A stretch of DNA of 29,999 nucleotides from a virus. Each line of letters starts with the position of its first letter. Positions within the stretch are counted from its first letter, which is position 1. A program made the translations under genes and the position numbers. Below the pieces are notes generated by a model. It was not told the origin of the DNA. It saw only the letters and a list, made by a program, of their open reading frames with translations, and did not search any database. Location: positions 1-29,999 of the IMG/VR virus record IMGVR_UViG_3300024313_000039; one strand, given 5' to 3'. Below, piece by piece: positions 3,099 to 29,999 of the stretch.

Positions 3099-3373
3099 TG
3101 GATAAAGATGAAAGTTACGAAAATGTAGAACAAGCTCAACAGCATTATGCTCAAGAGTTAGAGCAACTGCATGAAGATGAAGATAGGCATTTGCAAAAGT
3201 TAGAAGATGAAGTGGATAAGCATTTAGCAATTTCTATAGATGTTCATAAATCTTTTTCTTTTGCATTGGAATATATGAAACAATCTAAAAAATTAAATCA
3301 ATCACAACATATTGCAATAATGCAATTTACAAATACAGCAATTAAAAACAGGAGCAATCAAGATGGAAGATAA
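3098..3373 (+). CDS. Hypothetical coiled-coil protein
   Basis: The protein has 91 residues. Residues 5-45 are rich in Glu, Gln, His and Lys with heptad-like leucines (YAQELEQLHEDEDRHLQKL), suggesting a coiled coil. The rest is helical. It is coupled upstream (TAATG) and overlaps the SSB-like gene downstream by 11 nt. The SD for that gene, AGGAGCA, lies inside this reading frame. The function is not recognisable. Confidence 0.68.
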   Translation: MDKDESYENVEQAQQHYAQELEQLHEDEDRHLQKLEDEVDKHLAISIDVHKSFSFALEYMKQSKKLNQSQHIAIMQFTNTAIKNRSNQDGR

Positions 3374-3692
3374 ATCAATTAAAACACCAAGTGGCTATGA
3401 GATAAGAGTAAACTCTGGGAATTTATTTAAGAACAATTCAGAGAATCCAAAAGCACCAGCATATCGAGGTTTAGTCAATATTGAGGGACGTGGATTTGAC
3501 CTTGCGTTATGGCGTACAGAAAAAGGTTATTTGAATGTAAAATTTACTGAACATAAGATATCAGAAGATGGAACTAAGCAAGAATATAAGTATGATAATA
3601 AAACTTCAAACCTTACTCCAGAGCAAGCTGGCAAAATAATATCTGAAGATATGAATAAGAAAGATGAATTTAATGATGACATACCATTTTAA
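3363..3692 (+). CDS. SSB-like protein with acidic DDIPF tail
   Basis: The protein has 109 residues. Its main visible signal is the C-terminal D-E-F-N-D-D-I-P-F, the acidic tip with terminal Phe used by single-stranded DNA-binding proteins to recruit partners. The body has an N-terminal G-N-L-F-K-N-N motif and a beta-rich segment (YRGLVNIEGRGFDLALW) compatible with a compact OB-like or DUF736-like barrel, though it is not a classical SSB by eye. Its position two genes after ERF fits a role in protecting or presenting single strands for annealing. It ends the first early gene block, before the tandem hairpins at 3727-3785. Confidence 0.6.
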   Translation: MEDKSIKTPSGYEIRVNSGNLFKNNSENPKAPAYRGLVNIEGRGFDLALWRTEKGYLNVKFTEHKISEDGTKQEYKYDNKTSNLTPEQAGKIISEDMNKKDEFNDDIPF

Positions 3693-3798: not shown

Positions 3799-4392
3799 AT
3801 GGGCAAATTAAAACATTTAAACAGCGAATTTTACAAAGAAAATATAATTTACGATAACAACAAAGATTCTGAATATGGCATAGTGCCAATTGAGATGGCT
3901 GACAATATGACTGACTTAGTTCTTAAAGAAGCTATGCAGTTCGGTGAAGAAGTTAAAACATCAACAACAGATAAAAATTTATCACATATGAGAAATGTTG
4001 AATGTTGGCGATTGAATCAAAAAGAATCTATCACCGCAGAATTACTTAATCATGCAATTATAGATATTAACAAAACTTTAAATTATAAATTATCTGGATT
4101 GCAAGACGTTCAATATTTGGAATACCATGAAGGCGGAAAATATGATTGGCACTCTGACATTGGTTCTGGTGTTGCAAGTATGAGAAAAATATCTATTAGT
4201 TGGGTATTGAATGAAGGTTTTGAAGGGGGTGATTTACAATTCTTTGGAGATGGTGGAGAAATACATACCCTCAATTCAACGCCAAACAAATTAGTTTCAT
4301 TCACAAGTTTTTTAAATCACAGGGTTACACCAGTAACTAAAGGTATACGCAAATGCGTGGTGGCTTGGTGTTTCGGTGAATCATGGAGATAA
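3799..4392 (+). CDS. 2-oxoglutarate/Fe(II)-dependent oxygenase (prolyl-4-hydroxylase-like)
   Basis: The protein has 197 residues. It shows the iron-binding facial triad of the double-stranded beta-helix fold: H118-S-D120 in YDWHSDIG, and distal H174 in FLNHRVTPV. R184 ten residues later would bind 2-oxoglutarate. The strand YLEYHEGGKY before the HxD motif is also typical. Family members hydroxylate protein side chains or other small targets, and marine phages often carry them, but the phage substrate is unknown. It lies directly after a terminator-like hairpin and overlaps nothing upstream. The next small gene follows its stop by one nucleotide. Confidence 0.88.
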   Translation: MGKLKHLNSEFYKENIIYDNNKDSEYGIVPIEMADNMTDLVLKEAMQFGEEVKTSTTDKNLSHMRNVECWRLNQKESITAELLNHAIIDINKTLNYKLSGLQDVQYLEYHEGGKYDWHSDIGSGVASMRKISISWVLNEGFEGGDLQFFGDGGEIHTLNSTPNKLVSFTSFLNHRVTPVTKGIRKCVVAWCFGESWR

Positions 4393-4665: not shown

Positions 4666-4913
4666 ATTGAAGTGTGAATCAGTAAGCATTTCAAGGTTGG
4701 GTGCAAAGAAGTAGGGATTAATTACCCTGAAACGGAGAGCTACAGAGGGACTCGTTATGTAAGTGTATTTTAATTTAAGTATATTTACATAGGGGTTCTC
4801 TCTGATAGAGATGTAAATTCTCGGATTTATACAGGGTAATAGCTGTATGAAATTTAGATGGAAATTCTATGCAAATCACATGTGTAAGGGAGCTATAATA
4901 CGCTCCCTTTTTT
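4666..4913 (+). ncRNA. Candidate structured non-coding RNA, about 248 nt
   Basis: This 487-nt gap holds no convincing gene but has a promoter, dense base-pairing potential and a strong terminator. Helices read by eye: TTGAAGTG (4667-4674) with CATTTCAA (4687-4694), one G-U pair; a 15-bp stem with three G-U pairs, 4756-4770 with 4777-4791; ATACAG (4829-4834) with CTGTAT (4843-4848); and a long-range 9-bp pairing ATTACCCTG (4721-4729) with CAGGGTAAT (4832-4840). ATTTACAT (4783-4790) can also pair with ATGTAAAT (4811-4818), which competes with the 15-bp stem and suggests two alternative folds. I do not recognise the family: no tRNA, tmRNA or group I intron core was seen. It could be a trans-acting sRNA, or a long leader if read-through reaches the operon at 5091. 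Confidence 0.6.
4886..4913 (+). terminator. Strong rho-independent terminator of the candidate ncRNA
   Basis: An 8-bp perfect stem AAGGGAGC (4886-4893) / GCTCCCTT (4902-4909) with an 8-nt loop, followed by a T-run to 4913. It closes the transcript that starts near 4666 and insulates the next promoter at 5008. Confidence 0.85.
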
Positions 4914-5007
4914 GTCTAATTTTAAAATAAATTTAAAATAAATTGAAATAATTTATATTTTATATATAAATCAATAACTTATAGCTGTATATTTTTACTA
5001 TATATTC

Positions 5008-5036
5008 TTTACATATATATAATTATTATATATACT
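5008..5036 (+). promoter_or_regulatory. Sigma70-type promoter with perfect palindrome (copy A)
   Basis: The -35 is TTTACA (5008-5013), then a spacer of exactly 17 nt, then -10 TATACT (5031-5036); each box is one base off consensus. A perfect 21-bp palindrome (5014-5034, arms of 10 with one central base) fills the spacer and enters the -10. That is where a repressor or activator dimer would act. The same arrangement is found at 24593-24621 on -. Confidence 0.8.
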
Positions 5037-5040
5037 TTCT

Positions 5041-5064
5041 TTATAGGTTGATAACAGCTTATAA
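5041..5064 (+). promoter_or_regulatory. Start-site hairpin, copy A
   Basis: TTATAGGTTG pairs with CAGCTTATAA around the loop ATAA (10-4-10), with two G-U pairs. It begins at the expected transcription start (about 5043). Copy B at 24588-24565 has the same geometry and loop with base changes that keep pairing, so an RNA structure at the 5' end of the mRNA is likely. A DNA operator is the alternative. Confidence 0.65.
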
Positions 5065-5090
5065 ATAAAAACTTAAACAGGAGCAAGAAA

Positions 5091-5519
5091 ATGAAAAAAT
5101 TAGAAAAGAAAATAGAGAAATTTTTAACAGGGCAAGGTTACGAAAATGTAACTTTTAATAAAACTAACAAATGGAGTGATGAAGAATACATTGAAGTTAG
5201 AGCTGACCATGTTACTAAAGCATGGACTTATGAAGGTGAAACAAAAACTATTGATGATGATTATGGAAAATTTACATTAACAAAGGGTGAACATTTTCCA
5301 GAAGAAAGAGAAAATAATGACATCTTTAGAATTTATCCAAAAGGTAAAGTGAATGGTCGCCAAACATATTTTATTACATGGGATGGAGTTAGCGACATCA
5401 TAAAAGATACAATGGATTATTCTTATGGAATCCCAGAAGTAGTTGATGAATTTTTTTATAACACTTTTGATGAATTAGAAGGTTATGACAATGTTTCTGC
5501 TGACATCTTAGCAGTATAA
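5091..5519 (+). CDS. Hypothetical protein, first gene of scaffold-A operon
   Basis: This is a 142-residue soluble acidic protein I do not recognise. It has an N-terminal lysine-rich helix (MKKLEKKIEKFL), then probably a mixed alpha/beta domain with many Tyr and Asp. There are no cysteines and no membrane segment. The ribosome site AGGAGCAAGAAA directly precedes ATG. It is expressed from the promoter at 5008-5036 with a structured leader, and the GGGAGC hairpin follows its stop. Its counterpart in the second scaffold, the 53-residue gene at 24379, is not similar in sequence. Confidence 0.72.
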   Translation: MKKLEKKIEKFLTGQGYENVTFNKTNKWSDEEYIEVRADHVTKAWTYEGETKTIDDDYGKFTLTKGEHFPEERENNDIFRIYPKGKVNGRQTYFITWDGVSDIIKDTMDYSYGIPEVVDEFFYNTFDELEGYDNVSADILAV

Positions 5520-5527
5520 TTTTAACA

Positions 5528-5545
5528 GGGAGCAGAAATGCTCCC
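5528..5545 (+). repeat. GGGAGC-AGAAAT-GCTCCC intercistronic hairpin, copy 1
   Basis: A perfect 6-bp stem with the 6-nt loop AGAAAT, 8 nt after the stop of the 5091 gene. The 5' arm is SD-like and the loop runs into ATG, so a five-codon reading frame (M-L-P-Q-H-stop) ends just before the AGGAG of the next gene at 5565. The stretch 5516-5558 is identical on the opposite strand at about 24384-24342 (copy 3). Confidence 0.8.
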
Positions 5546-5564
5546 ACAACATTAGGAGTATAAT

Positions 5565-5849
5565 ATGAAAGTATGGAATAACGAACTAGGTAGAAAAACT
5601 AAATGGAAAGAAGGTCATGGTTGGACTGAAATTATGGATAATGTAAGTAAAGGCGACAAAGTAATAAATGGTAGTGGTGAAGTTCTTATTTGCACAAACA
5701 TATTGGATTTAAACAAGTATCATAATTTTGGAAGAAAAGCTATGCAAGTCTATTTACACCCAACAAAAAAAGATGGAACTTTACATAAGGGCAGAAGTTT
5801 TATCTGTTATAAAAATGATGGAACAGGCTGGGAAAGAGAAGAAGAATAA
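5565..5849 (+). CDS. Hypothetical protein, second gene of scaffold-A operon
   Basis: This is a 94-residue basic, Trp- and Gly-containing protein I do not recognise, probably a small beta-rich fold (GDKVINGSGEVLICTN). The site AGGAG lies at 5554-5558, just 3' of the GGGAGC hairpin. Another copy of the hairpin starts 8 nt after its stop. No catalytic residues can be inferred. Confidence 0.7.
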   Translation: MKVWNNELGRKTKWKEGHGWTEIMDNVSKGDKVINGSGEVLICTNILDLNKYHNFGRKAMQVYLHPTKKDGTLHKGRSFICYKNDGTGWEREEE

Positions 5850-5856
5850 ATTAACA

Positions 5857-5874
5857 GGGAGCAGAAATGCTCCC
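5857..5874 (+). repeat. GGGAGC-AGAAAT-GCTCCC intercistronic hairpin, copy 2
   Basis: This has the same stem and loop as copy 1, with the shared left flank TTAACA, and lies between 5849 and the gene at 5892. Here the reading frame from the internal ATG does not stop at once but runs out of frame into the next gene. That argues that the conserved element is the hairpin rather than the short peptide. Confidence 0.78.
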
Positions 5875-5891
5875 ATTTACTTGGAGATACA

Positions 5892-6677
5892 ATGAGCAAA
5901 TTAAAAATAAGAGATGTAGCAAGAAAAGAAAATAGCAATAAATATTGTGGAGCAAGTGCATTGTCAGTTATAACAGGTCTTGATAGTTCAATTTGTGCAA
6001 GAATATTGGCAGACTTTGATTCAGATGTAATGATTACAGGTTGCTCAATTCCAAGAATGATTAATGCTATTAGAAATTATGGACTTGAAGCAAAAAGAGT
6101 TTTAAATCTTCCAGACAAATTAGGAGCTTTTATTAAGCAAAGAAAAGTTGGAGATAAAAACTTTTATTTGATTGTTGCTAGAACACATTATCAAATTATA
6201 CAAGGCAATAGATATGTTTGTGGTCAAGCTGGAAAAGTTGCTTCAATTCACAGAAATAAATGGTGTGAGTGGGGAGCTGATTTAGAAAGAGTTTATATTA
6301 TTTCTGGAGATGTAAAAATGCCAAAGCATATTAAAGATAAAATAAATAAATGGCAGAACAGAAATAAAAATGACTTTATAAAAGATGAAAGAGCAGTCAA
6401 AAGATTATTGAAAAAAACCAATATGAGATTTCAAGATTTATTTGAATATGGTATGAATGATGATAGAGATTGGTGGTATGAAGAATATAAAGAGAATAAC
6501 GAAACATTCATACTTGCTGTTAACCATGATATTGAACCAGCAGAAAAATGGAATAATCTTCTAGGAAAATATTTAGCACAAGAGCCATATGCAGAAGAAG
6601 AAGAATATCAATATGGCTATATAGAAGTGAAAGATATAGTTCCATTTACAAAAGAATTTTTAGAGATAGTTAACTGA
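5892..6677 (+). CDS. Papain-fold cysteine protease-like protein (C39-like N-terminal domain)
   Basis: The protein has 261 residues. The N-terminal part has N16-K-Y-C19-G-A-S-A-L-S-V-I-T-G, the usual helix start with the catalytic Cys of C39-like and transglutaminase-like folds. About 80 residues later, FYLIVARTH99YQIIQGNRYVCGQ fits the His-bearing strand followed by a turn. I infer a papain-like fold that may cleave or deamidate a target. The C-terminal half (about 150-261) is charged, ends in a Glu/Tyr-rich segment and is unrecognised. It is the last large gene of the scaffold-A operon, preceded by hairpin copy 2 and GGAGATACA. Catalytic activity is uncertain because the third active-site residue cannot be fixed by eye. 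Confidence 0.55.
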   Translation: MSKLKIRDVARKENSNKYCGASALSVITGLDSSICARILADFDSDVMITGCSIPRMINAIRNYGLEAKRVLNLPDKLGAFIKQRKVGDKNFYLIVARTHYQIIQGNRYVCGQAGKVASIHRNKWCEWGADLERVYIISGDVKMPKHIKDKINKWQNRNKNDFIKDERAVKRLLKKTNMRFQDLFEYGMNDDRDWWYEEYKENNETFILAVNHDIEPAEKWNNLLGKYLAQEPYAEEEEYQYGYIEVKDIVPFTKEFLEIVN

Positions 6678-23744: not shown

Positions 23745-23772
23745 GCAAAAAAAAGGGAGTTGTGAAACTCCC
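23745..23772 (-). terminator. Terminator of the moron-like cassette
   Basis: On -, a GGGGAGTT / AACTCCC stem with a TCAC loop is followed by a run of eight Ts (down to about 23747). It lies between the 38-residue membrane gene and the prohead protease. It is the only clear terminator inside the late region. Confidence 0.85.
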
Positions 23773-23797
23773 CAAAAAGGTAGCAAGTATGAAAATT

Positions 23798-23914
23798 TTA
23801 TTCTAGCAGTAATATAAAATATGTTAAACCGATTATCATACTAAACATTAATATACTTAGAACTATTTCCCAGCCTGTCATATATTCCTCATGTTGATTG
23901 TGTTTATCTATCAT
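23798..23914 (-). CDS. Small membrane protein, third gene of moron cassette
   Basis: A 38-codon frame runs from ATG 23914 to the stop at 23798. A charged N-terminus (MIDKHNQHEEYMTGWE) is followed by one hydrophobic helix (IVLSILMFSMIIGLTYFILLL). The SD GGAGTATCTTAAT overlaps the stop of the 138-residue gene. A single-pass membrane protein is likely, perhaps acting in the host envelope, as moron proteins often do. Too short for a family call. Confidence 0.55.
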   Translation of the reverse strand: MIDKHNQHEEYMTGWEIVLSILMFSMIIGLTYFILLLE

Positions 23915-23915
23915 A

Positions 23916-24332
23916 TTAAGATACTCCTTCTATTTTTCTTATAGCTTTTGTTAATAATTGAAATTCTTCATATCCATTATGAACTGCTTCCCAGTCACCA
24001 TGTAAACAATGTTTAATAATATCTTCACTCTCAATACAGCTCCTCATAAGAAGATTATTATTTTCATCAAGTTCAGTTCTTAACTTACTTATTTTTTGCT
24101 CAAGATTATACAGTTCATATTTTGCATTTGCGACATACTCTTTTCTATCTGCACCCTCTTTATAACTTTTATATGTTTCTTCTTTTAAAGCACTTATTAA
24201 ATTCATTACAACTATTGCTTCTTCAAGATATTTACATTCAAGATTAGAAATCTTAGTTTTAAGTTTTTTAGTTTTTTGTAAAGCTAATAAGTATATTGCT
24301 TTAGTTTTATCATCATTATATTGTGTTTTCAT
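23916..24332 (-). CDS. Coiled-coil protein, second gene of moron cassette
   Basis: This is a 138-residue, almost all-helical protein with heptad patterns (KTKKLKTKISNLECKYLEEA and YELYNLEQKISKLRTELDEN). The C-terminal helices contain three Cys/Trp sites (MRSCIES, IKHCLHGDWEAV). It is not recognised as any head or tail gene. It is preceded by GGGAGC hairpin copy 3 and AGGAG. The region carries its own promoter and terminator. An accessory role, such as influencing the host or superinfection, is inference. Confidence 0.65.
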   Translation of the reverse strand: MKTQYNDDKTKAIYLLALQKTKKLKTKISNLECKYLEEAIVVMNLISALKEETYKSYKEGADRKEYVANAKYELYNLEQKISKLRTELDENNNLLMRSCIESEDIIKHCLHGDWEAVHNGYEEFQLLTKAIRKIEGVS

Positions 24333-24352
24333 AATTACTCTCCTAATGTTGT

Positions 24353-24370
24353 GGGAGCATTTCTGCTCCC
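24353..24370 (-). repeat. GGGAGC-AGAAAT-GCTCCC intercistronic hairpin, copy 3
   Basis: The same hairpin on the opposite strand, lying between the 53- and 138-residue genes. With its flanks it is identical over 43 nt to 5516-5558, including the five-codon M-L-P-Q-H frame and the AGGAG of the following gene. Confidence 0.8.
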
Positions 24371-24378
24371 TGTTAAAA

Positions 24379-24540
24379 TTATCTATTATCTGAATGTATA
24401 TTAGTTATTTTTGATTTAGGATATTTTACTTCTGCTTTCCTTAATGCTTCATACAAATCTTTTGCTTTAATAACTTTCCATATACCTTTGTTTGGGGTAT
24501 AACTGCTTGTGTTATCTAATTCTACAAAATATTTTTTCAT
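24379..24540 (-). CDS. Small protein, first gene of moron cassette
   Basis: A 53-codon frame runs from ATG 24540 to TAA at 24379. It opens MKKYFVELDNTSSYTPNKGI, then has a helix KAKDLYEALRKAEVKYPKS and ends in NIHSDNR: a compact beta-alpha protein resembling small phage host-modulating peptides only in size. The upstream AAACAGGAGATAGGAA is shared in part with the ribosome site of the 5091 gene. It is directly downstream of scaffold copy B. Confidence 0.65.
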   Translation of the reverse strand: MKKYFVELDNTSSYTPNKGIWKVIKAKDLYEALRKAEVKYPKSKITNIHSDNR

Positions 24541-24564
24541 TTCCTATCTCCTGTTTAAGTTTTT

Positions 24565-24588
24565 ATATAAGTTATTATTAACTTATAT
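24565..24588 (-). promoter_or_regulatory. Start-site hairpin, copy B
   Basis: On - ATATAAGTTA pairs perfectly with TAACTTATAT around the loop ATAA, starting at the expected transcription start (about 24586). Compared with copy A, the first pair flips A-T to T-A, the last changes A-T to G-C, and two pairs become G-U. All 10 pairs are retained in both. Confidence 0.65.
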
Positions 24589-24592
24589 AAGA

Positions 24593-24621
24593 AGTATATA
24601 TAATTATTATATATATGTAAA
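24593..24621 (-). promoter_or_regulatory. Sigma70-type promoter with perfect palindrome (copy B)
   Basis: -35 TTTACA (24621-24616), 17-nt spacer, -10 TATACT (24598-24593), with the same 21-bp palindrome at 24595-24615 as in copy A. The identical promoter and operator-like site at two loci suggests shared control. Confidence 0.8.
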
Positions 24622-24682
24622 GTATATATATAAAATAAATGTAGTTATAAGTGTTTGATTTGTATAGATATTATAAATTAAT

Positions 24683-25459
24683 TTAAATTATTTCATCTTC
24701 TGAATCATAATACAGGGTAAAACAGCGACAATTGATGACATTTAAAGCACCGCCATTTTGATAATCGCCTGTGTAATTCATTCTATTTTCAGTAAAGCCA
24801 CCGCCAGCTATGGGTGTCATAACCTTAAACATCTCATTGGTTGATATTACTGTTCCATTCATAGCCCTGTGCCATTGTCTAGTCCTGTCATCTAAAGCAC
24901 TATTCCATTCTTTGACAGGTCTATCCAAACCTAATGTTTTAGATATTTCATTATTGCCATAACTCATAGCAGAATGAGTTTCTGTTCTAGCAATCATAGT
25001 GGCTCGATATGGAGCAAAAGATTTATTACGTCTAATCTTTTCCGCTATCTGTGGAATAGATAAACCGTCTGCAATACCAATCTTAATTGCTTGTCGTATT
25101 TGTTTTTTAGTGGTTTCGGATACTTGCGTTACTTTAGTAGCTGTTACTTGTGCAATATAACTAGCAACAATAATATCTATTTCATCTTCTTGTTTGGTCT
25201 CTCGTTGCTTTATCAATCGTTCACTTGTAGCTGTAATAACTGTCGTATAATGATTAGATAATATTTTAAATAATTCATCTGAAAAATCTTCTAGAAAAGT
25301 ATAATACATATCACCAACTGCAATATATTCTCTTTCTGCTATTCTGGCTGTTTTTTTAAATAATTTTTTAGTCTTAGCATTAAGACTTTTAGAAAGATTG
25401 AGATATAACTTGAGTTGCTCTTTGTAGTCCTTACGCCTATTAATCCTGATTTTTGACAT
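24683..25459 (-). CDS. MuF / SPP1 gp7-like minor head protein
   Basis: The protein has 258 residues. The N-terminal half is helical. The C-terminal MuF core is clear: A-R-T-E-T-H-S-A, K-E-W-N-S-A-L-D-D-R-T-R-Q-W-H and the final N-C-R-C-F-T-L-Y. Such proteins bind the portal and enter the head, aiding assembly or DNA ejection. It follows the endolysin gene with no gap and precedes the moron cassette. Confidence 0.9.
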   Translation of the reverse strand: MSKIRINRRKDYKEQLKLYLNLSKSLNAKTKKLFKKTARIAEREYIAVGDMYYTFLEDFSDELFKILSNHYTTVITATSERLIKQRETKQEDEIDIIVASYIAQVTATKVTQVSETTKKQIRQAIKIGIADGLSIPQIAEKIRRNKSFAPYRATMIARTETHSAMSYGNNEISKTLGLDRPVKEWNSALDDRTRQWHRAMNGTVISTNEMFKVMTPIAGGGFTENRMNYTGDYQNGGALNVINCRCFTLYYDSEDEII

Positions 25460-25861
25460 CTACTCAATTATTTCAAAATGAACTGCGTCAATAAAATTCA
25501 TATCCCTATTCAGTTTGAAATCTCCTGTTACCCAGCTTCCACCCCATCTTATTTTAATATCTAAAATTTCGCAAACCTCGCCCACTACCGAAGCTACAGC
25601 TTCGTAATATTCTAGCTCCCAAGTAACTTTGCCTTTATCATAGCAAGCTATGTCTACAGCCTTACCCTGACAATGAAGCGATTTAGAGCCAACCTTACTC
25701 AATCCATCAGCTTTAAGTTGTTCGGCTCTTTCTAGGCTTCTCATGCCCTCTGTGATGCCAAAATCAATGGGTGTTAGCTTAATAACTTCATTCATAACTA
25801 ATTTTAAGTCTGGGTGAACTGTTTCTAATTTTTCTAGTGAGCCTTTTCCAAATTTAAACAT
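25460..25861 (-). CDS. M15-family endolysin (L-Ala-D-Glu / D-Ala-D-Ala peptidase type)
   Basis: The protein has 133 residues. It has the M15 metal site S61-L-H63-C-Q-G-K-A-V-D70 and D125-A-V-H128-F-E, with H63, D70 and H128 as zinc ligands. The length matches single-domain phage endopeptidases such as the T5 type. No signal peptide is present, so it needs the holin at 6866. Its placement between portal and MuF-like genes, far from the holin, is unusual. It shares no base with its neighbours (3-nt gap upstream, abutting downstream). Confidence 0.9.
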   Translation of the reverse strand: MFKFGKGSLEKLETVHPDLKLVMNEVIKLTPIDFGITEGMRSLERAEQLKADGLSKVGSKSLHCQGKAVDIACYDKGKVTWELEYYEAVASVVGEVCEILDIKIRWGGSWVTGDFKLNRDMNFIDAVHFEIIE

Positions 25862-29687: not shown

Positions 29688-29999
29688 CTATTTATTAGCG
29701 TATTTATACCATCTTTTGATTACCTTCTTCAACCCATCTATTCCTTCTGCTATTTTTTCCAACTTATCTTTTTTAATGATTCCTATTCTTTTCACTTCAG
29801 TATTACCATCATACGAATAACCTTCTATGATAAGCACCTTAAAATTATCATGTTTAGCCAAAGCCTTTAATAGTATCTTCTGACCCATAGATATCTTTTC
29901 ACCATCTCTTTTCCATTCAGCAATTAGAAACTTGCCTTTGCGTTCAAACACCATATCTAAATCACTAGGCATAGCTTTAGGATTATCTTCTATAACTCC
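29688..29999 (-). CDS. PD-(D/E)XK-like small nuclease, 3' part (runs off the window)
   Basis: This is the frame open from the window edge down to TAG at 29688. It carries the active-site segment P-S-D-L-D...A-E-W-K seen in 1-225, followed by a C-terminal part that copy 1 lacks: IIEGYSYDGNTEVKRIGII and a basic helix ending KRWYKYANK. It lies directly upstream of the small terminase. Against 1-168 it differs at 8 of 168 bases; seven are synonymous and one gives Leu to Phe. It is most likely the same gene, read across the ends of a circular or circularly permuted genome. Confidence 0.6.
   Translation of the reverse strand, partial: GVIEDNPKAMPSDLDMVFERKGKFLIAEWKRDGEKISMGQKILLKALAKHDNFKVLIIEGYSYDGNTEVKRIGIIKKDKLEKIAEGIDGLKKVIKRWYKYANK

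Follow-up and report, generated by a model that had tools for sequence, protein, structure and literature searches.

Two operons lying at distant loci of the window (the whole stretch of DNA analysed here, IMG/VR record IMGVR_UViG_3300024313_000039, 29,999 bases, 33.8% GC) carry homologous leaders and the same RNA hairpin around different genes, and comparison with related viral contigs shows that such gene cassettes are exchanged at these fixed seams, both from phage to phage and from one slot to the other. The left slot spans 4936–6677; the right slot, 23798–24697, lies between a MuF-like head gene and the protease-capsid genes. We consider it probable that they form a two-slot cassette system, with the hairpin marking and protecting mRNA ends and the shared sequence guiding swapping, most likely via an Erf-like protein. 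Phage genomes are mosaics and, to our knowledge, signals placed exactly at the mosaic seams have rarely been seen. In this case two defined elements, a leader and an RNA hairpin, form the seams, and exchange can be followed between two places of a single genome as well as between phages. Besides the cassettes, the window encodes a terminase, a portal, a MuF-like head morphogenesis protein, a major head protein, a tape measure and a tail fibre J protein.

The sequence-only reading had proposed about 120 bp of homology between the regions preceding 5091 (+) and 24540 (−). This homology was recovered and extends further: 4936–5093 (+) and 24538–24697 (−) are alignable over ∼158 nt with ∼80% identity. 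The local score of this pair is 162, while 1000 dinucleotide shuffles averaged 28 and reached at most 51, and nowhere else in the rest of the 29,999-nt window scores similarly. The left leader scaffold (4936–5090, +, homologous to 24541–24697, −) is composed of an AT-rich upstream box, a promoter, a palindrome and a ribosome-binding site. Its sigma-70-like promoter, TTTACA-17 nt-TATACT (5008–5036, +), was located by a consensus scan, which by itself is not significant in DNA so AT-rich; many leader homologues carry TTGACA at the same site. The palindrome TATAGGTTGATAACAGCTTATA (5042–5063, +) is situated at or just past the expected transcription start and is followed by the ribosome-binding block AAAAACTTAAACAGGAG (5067–5083, +). 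The right leader scaffold (24541–24697, −) has its promoter at 24593–24621, its palindrome at 24566–24587 and its ribosome-binding block at 24548–24564. The palindrome had been described as operator-like. Inspection by eye of the variants present in 33 leader copies indicates that the fold is kept in several of them through G-U, A-U and G-C pairs; it could equally be an operator or a 5′ stem-loop of the mRNA.

Leaders of this type recur in other viral contigs. The exact 17-mer of the ribosome-binding block was found in 40 viral-contig stretches and the core promoter in 11 stretches of IMG/VR contigs; BLAST with the two leaders gave 47 distinct rows, a few of which represent one place matched by both queries. 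One contig (L017) has a leader that matches the left leader of the window at 158/158 nt and stands ahead of an unrelated gene. Altogether, the 32 leader copies that were scored precede 22 families of first genes.

The second shared element is a 43-nt block, identical between 5516–5558 (+) and 24340–24382 (−) as the earlier reading had indicated. The left copy includes a stop codon, a GNRA hairpin (stem-loop 5528–5545) and a Shine-Dalgarno sequence; in the right copy the stem-loop lies at 24353–24370. The hairpin, GGGAGCA-GAAA-TGCTCCC, consists of a 7-bp stem closed by a GAAA (GNRA) tetraloop. A third copy, overlooked previously, is located after the second gene of the left operon (25-nt core 5851–5875, stem-loop 5857–5874, +). 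The earlier statement that the hairpin follows the first gene is thus correct for both operons but too narrow, since it may follow any cassette gene. Predicted minimum free energies are −13.7 to −14.1 kcal/mol, and for each window copy none of 200 shuffles was equally stable. Most copies lie 4–8 nt past a stop codon and 16–19 nt ahead of the next start; some genes within the same operons have hairpin-free boundaries.

A GC-rich stem between genes could act as a transcription terminator or attenuator, and one copy passed a loose terminator scan. Nevertheless, nearly all contexts lack a T-run after the hairpin, the hairpin separates co-directional genes without a new promoter, and termination would not require a tetraloop as invariant as this one. 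Terminators proper, with a T-run, are found elsewhere: one, with a GGGAGC stem, upstream of the left leader (4886–4909, +) and one closing the right operon (23754–23773, −). We therefore regard a terminator as very unlikely; the hairpin is an intercistronic RNA element able to follow any cassette gene.

The pairing pattern of the hairpin across contigs was counted using scans that did not require pairing, leaving out an earlier pairing-selected set. Of 54 ACAGG-N5-GAAA sequences located after a stop codon in DNA of the clade, 51 were fully paired and the other three are ribosome sites, as against 0 of 26 for matches located elsewhere. In a scan of all IMG/VR with TTAACAGGG-N4-GAAA-N4-CCC, the four free pairs were all formed in 57 of 59 contexts (2% expected by chance), with more than ten stem types represented. 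Because of this strong covariation of the stem, we conclude from comparative evidence that the hairpin is an RNA structure under selection. An explanation at the level of translation is hardly credible. It would rely on the hidden Shine-Dalgarno sequence and ATG (GGGAGCAGAAATG), serving as a decoy or as the start of a mini-ORF; the 5′ half of the hairpin does resemble the ribosome site of the first gene, and two of the window copies would read MLPQH-stop, ending at the next Shine-Dalgarno. However, a short ORF is missing from the third window copy, and GGGGGTA-GAAA-TACCCCC, GGGGCTA-GAAA-TAGCCCC and GGGAGCT-GAAA-AGCTCCC occur at the same position with stem and loop kept and the ATG lost.

The exact hairpin 23-mer was found in 46 IMG/VR contig stretches representing 41 distinct contexts, many of these contigs being fragments that are partly redundant between samples. 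Wherever a 23-mer stretch includes a terminase gene, it falls within a single clade of marine siphophages; the related contigs retrieved by terminase likewise form one clade (∼55–100% identity). Some hairpin contexts are on contigs of 40–75 kb, which exceeds the genome size of this clade, so that the element appears to be distributed more widely. None of the 117 cellular loci listed for a looser pattern contained the exact 23-mer, and among the matches listed for this pattern in cellular genomes only unrelated hairpins were observed, pointing to no host. The left operon gave no blastn match among GenBank phages, the hairpin region gave only chance-level matches there, and nothing reached the gathering score in Rfam.

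The left operon contains swappable genes of 142 aa (5091–5519, +, without known family), 94 aa (5565–5849, +) and 261 aa (5892–6677, +, without significant family); the right operon contains genes of 53 aa (24379–24540, −, the first gene), 138 aa (23916–24332, −) and 38 aa (23798–23914, −, mostly the last gene ahead of the protease). These lengths agree with those given previously, as does the lack of relationship between the proteins of the two operons, which fall into separate clusters at blastp E<1e-4. Nothing significant was obtained with the six proteins against Pfam, PHROGs and PADLOC. The 261-aa protein carries a CGASAL motif near its N-terminus, faintly reminiscent of C39-type cysteine proteases; its C39-type match in the PDB was weak and not significant (E=0.57).

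Exchange is evident at the hairpin itself. The proteins flanking the 73 hairpins considered form 38 clusters upstream and 27 downstream, 10 clusters being represented on both sides, and in relatives the 38-aa gene is joined by a hairpin to seven different clusters of upstream genes. Three contigs that share one upstream gene are 91–97% identical in its last 150 nt and identical at 23/23 positions of the hairpin, with identity dropping to 23–37% in the next 60 nt. The mirror-image breakpoint is found in five contigs sharing the same 38-aa gene downstream. Sequence identity thus ends at the hairpin or at the ATG of the leader. The recurrence expected for a portable cassette, namely the scaffold and the hairpin before or after many different genes in marine viral contigs, is therefore borne out.

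The two-locus arrangement is also conserved in the clade. Loci were assigned using several marker genes, and not by the presence of the MuF-like gene on the same fragment alone: the left locus is beside a 2OG-oxygenase gene, and the right one is bordered by the MuF-like gene on one side and the protease on the other. In the window this 2OG-Fe(II) oxygenase gene (3799–4392, +, PF13640, E=5.9e-12) adjoins the left cassette, a position kept in relatives. Genes are exchanged between the loci. Homologues of the 94-aa gene, at the left locus in the window, occur at the right locus in L003/G001, L013 and L029; those of the 138-aa gene, at the right locus in the window, occur at the left locus in G001 (L304), L017 and L031. 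G001 thus carries both families at the loci opposite to those of the window. The homologue of the 142-aa gene in L025 is at the left locus. The right cassette of L006, L016 and L345 is in reverse orientation with respect to the MuF and protease genes and opposes the surrounding structural genes.

Two similar leaders in inverted orientation might suggest that one operon was simply duplicated and that its proteins then diverged, the outcome that the sequence-only reading had named as contradicting a portable cassette. Its probability is practically nil: the non-coding parts are 80–100% identical while the proteins have no detectable similarity, and relatives carry other gene sets as well as the same genes at the other locus. 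Gene mixing, the leader identity in L017 and the exchange between loci together rule it out. Nor do we find it credible that the hairpin serves as target of a site-specific recombinase or is itself a small mobile element, either integron attC-like or MITE-like. A single hairpin per gene cassette is indeed reminiscent of attC sites. Nevertheless, no integrase-like match was obtained among the window proteins scanned, which comprised part of the ORFs; the hairpin flanks (AACA...ACAAC or ACTTAC) do not correspond to RYYYAAC/GTTRRRY boxes; hairpin orientation is fixed with respect to transcription; leaders are exchanged too, and there was no sign of hairpins moving alone.

In relatives of the window phage, the hairpin often has a further element immediately behind it. 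Seven of the eight distinct type III hammerhead sequences present in these contigs follow the hairpin without a gap on its 3′ side and precede the next gene. For example, L018/L032 have the same 53-aa gene and hairpin as the window, followed by a hammerhead and another gene. These sequences have the CUGANGA and GAAA core and stems I–III, stem III being open as in type III. We propose from these features that they are self-cleaving ribozymes. The first were found using a motif that required the stems, hence biased toward pairing; with this reservation, two-sided changes were observed at 9 of the 16 pairs within the hammerhead. A covariance model detected 11 hammerhead copies in 1.06 Mb (E<4e-12), none of them in the window. 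No hammerhead was detected near the window hairpins, the best match having E=0.83. With Rfam RF00008, one hammerhead scored 30.4 bits (E=0.017), below the gathering cut-off of 48.5.

Scanning IMG/VR with the core motif gave at least 126 matches, including at least 115 complete hammerheads (at least 98 distinct); at least 92 of the complete ones have a start codon within 70 nt downstream. For 93 of these listed hammerheads, the 40 nt located 5′ of the ribozyme folded with −12 kcal/mol or better in 48% of cases, compared to 2.5% of upstream controls. In 49 of the 55 stable cases among the hammerheads listed, the end of the hairpin was 0–1 nt from the ribozyme. Since the hairpin abuts the ribozyme, the predicted cleavage would yield an upstream mRNA with a hairpin at its end. 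A strong hairpin abutting a hammerhead on its 5′ side is common at viral gene boundaries in IMG/VR loci L401–L481, well beyond the clade.

Taken with the exchange of genes, these features suggest how the cassettes may work. A fixed leader, including the sigma-70-type promoter, the palindrome and the ribosome site, would drive short accessory genes in each slot, where genes are separated by a stop codon, the 7-bp GAAA-tetraloop hairpin closely behind it and a fresh Shine-Dalgarno sequence for the next gene. The hairpin would then punctuate the polycistronic mRNA, giving a stable 3′ end to the upstream gene after cleavage downstream of the hairpin. Cleavage would be carried out by the hammerhead ribozyme in relatives and by host RNases in the window phage, which would need them because no hammerhead is located near its hairpins. 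With separate hairpin-ended mRNAs, genes could work in any order. The shared leader and hairpin would in addition provide the homology for recombination, most likely by the Erf-like single-strand annealing protein encoded at 2425–2901 (+, phrog_155, E=8e-30), our candidate for the swapping agent. A link of phage single-strand annealing proteins to the recombination of short or diverged sequences has been reported (PMC3945230, PMC8093625). An SSB-like protein is encoded at 3363–3692, near the Erf-like gene.

The recombination part of this scheme could be dispensed with if the leader and hairpin were selected only as expression signals of a two-locus regulon, with genes being brought in by illegitimate recombination and surviving only where the signals stay intact. 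Several observations agree with this: other phages have differing stems of the same shape at the same position, which implies a function independent of sequence identity; the promoter of the leader varies too; and short homology may reflect selection for signals following illegitimate recombination. On the other hand, 158 identical leader nt ahead of unrelated genes and breakpoints located exactly at the shared blocks argue for homology-guided exchange, and an annealing recombinase is encoded. A pure regulon is thus possible but rather unlikely, and we prefer the cassette system with homology-guided swapping. More tentatively, and with somewhat less than an even chance in our opinion, stop codon, hairpin, optional hammerhead and ribosome site might constitute an RNA boundary code common to several lineages of marine phages, making gene order irrelevant and exchange free. 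If so, this code would split polycistronic transcripts into separately ended mRNAs and allow exchange of accessory genes via leader and hairpin.

Among known systems, the closest in working principle are the PeSLs (promoter early stem-loops) of T4-type phages (Arbiol 2010; Comeau 2014; cited in PMC4503421). As far as they are described there, both systems have repeated promoter and stem-loop sequences between genes, tied to the shuffling of small accessory genes. By that same description, a PeSL is a promoter-terminator composite within one intergenic region, its stem-loop is a terminator with a T-run, and it belongs to large T4-type myoviruses. In contrast, the window, a ∼30-kb siphophage-like genome, has its promoter only at the operon head and hairpins after genes, with a fixed GAAA loop and, in nearly all contexts, no T-run; hammerheads joining the hairpins in relatives are a further difference. 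Hence, of the PeSL features given in that source, the flanking of shuffled genes is shared, and the composite cassette, the T-run terminator and the T4-like myovirus genome are not: the hairpin cassette is PeSL-like in its working principle without being a PeSL.

The start-associated sequences (SAS/ESAS) of cluster K mycobacteriophages, with the 13-bp GGGATAGGAGCCC at start codons (PMC3203893), are also short repeats, located where genes of different families begin, and some of them contain inverted repeats. The SAS is at the start codon, whereas the window element is placed after the stop codon and its swapping is documented; the window contains no copy of GGGATAGGAGCCC. Hammerheads of type III arrangement with a CUGANGA...GAAA core are known from intergenic positions upstream of genes in phages and bacteria (Perreault 2011, PMC3088659; RF00008). 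Those of the window's relatives differ in being a small variant below the Rfam gathering score that lies at gene boundaries, right against a strong hairpin on its 5′ side. For marine phages, we found neither this hairpin nor gene boundaries combining a hairpin with a hammerhead reported in the open-licence literature. Leader and hairpin offer a sequence handle for accessory genes, possibly involved in host takeover or anti-defence, of uncultured marine phages. They also make testable the idea that RNA end-processing signals, including hammerheads, are what frees gene order.

The nearest cultured matches, obtained with the C-terminal part of the window portal protein (57%), are CRP-822-type roseophages (PMC12629253), whose genome size is similar to that of the window. 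Their terminase was not among the best matches listed for the window terminase, and the hairpin is absent from the three CRP-822-type genomes checked. The endolysin gene of the window (25460–25861, −, phrog_465, E=5e-40) is flanked by the portal gene and the MuF-like gene, a place where lysis genes are not usually situated. Finally, the two ends of the window form a 168-nt direct repeat (1–168 and 29832–29999, 95% identical), as in a genome that is complete or circularly permuted.
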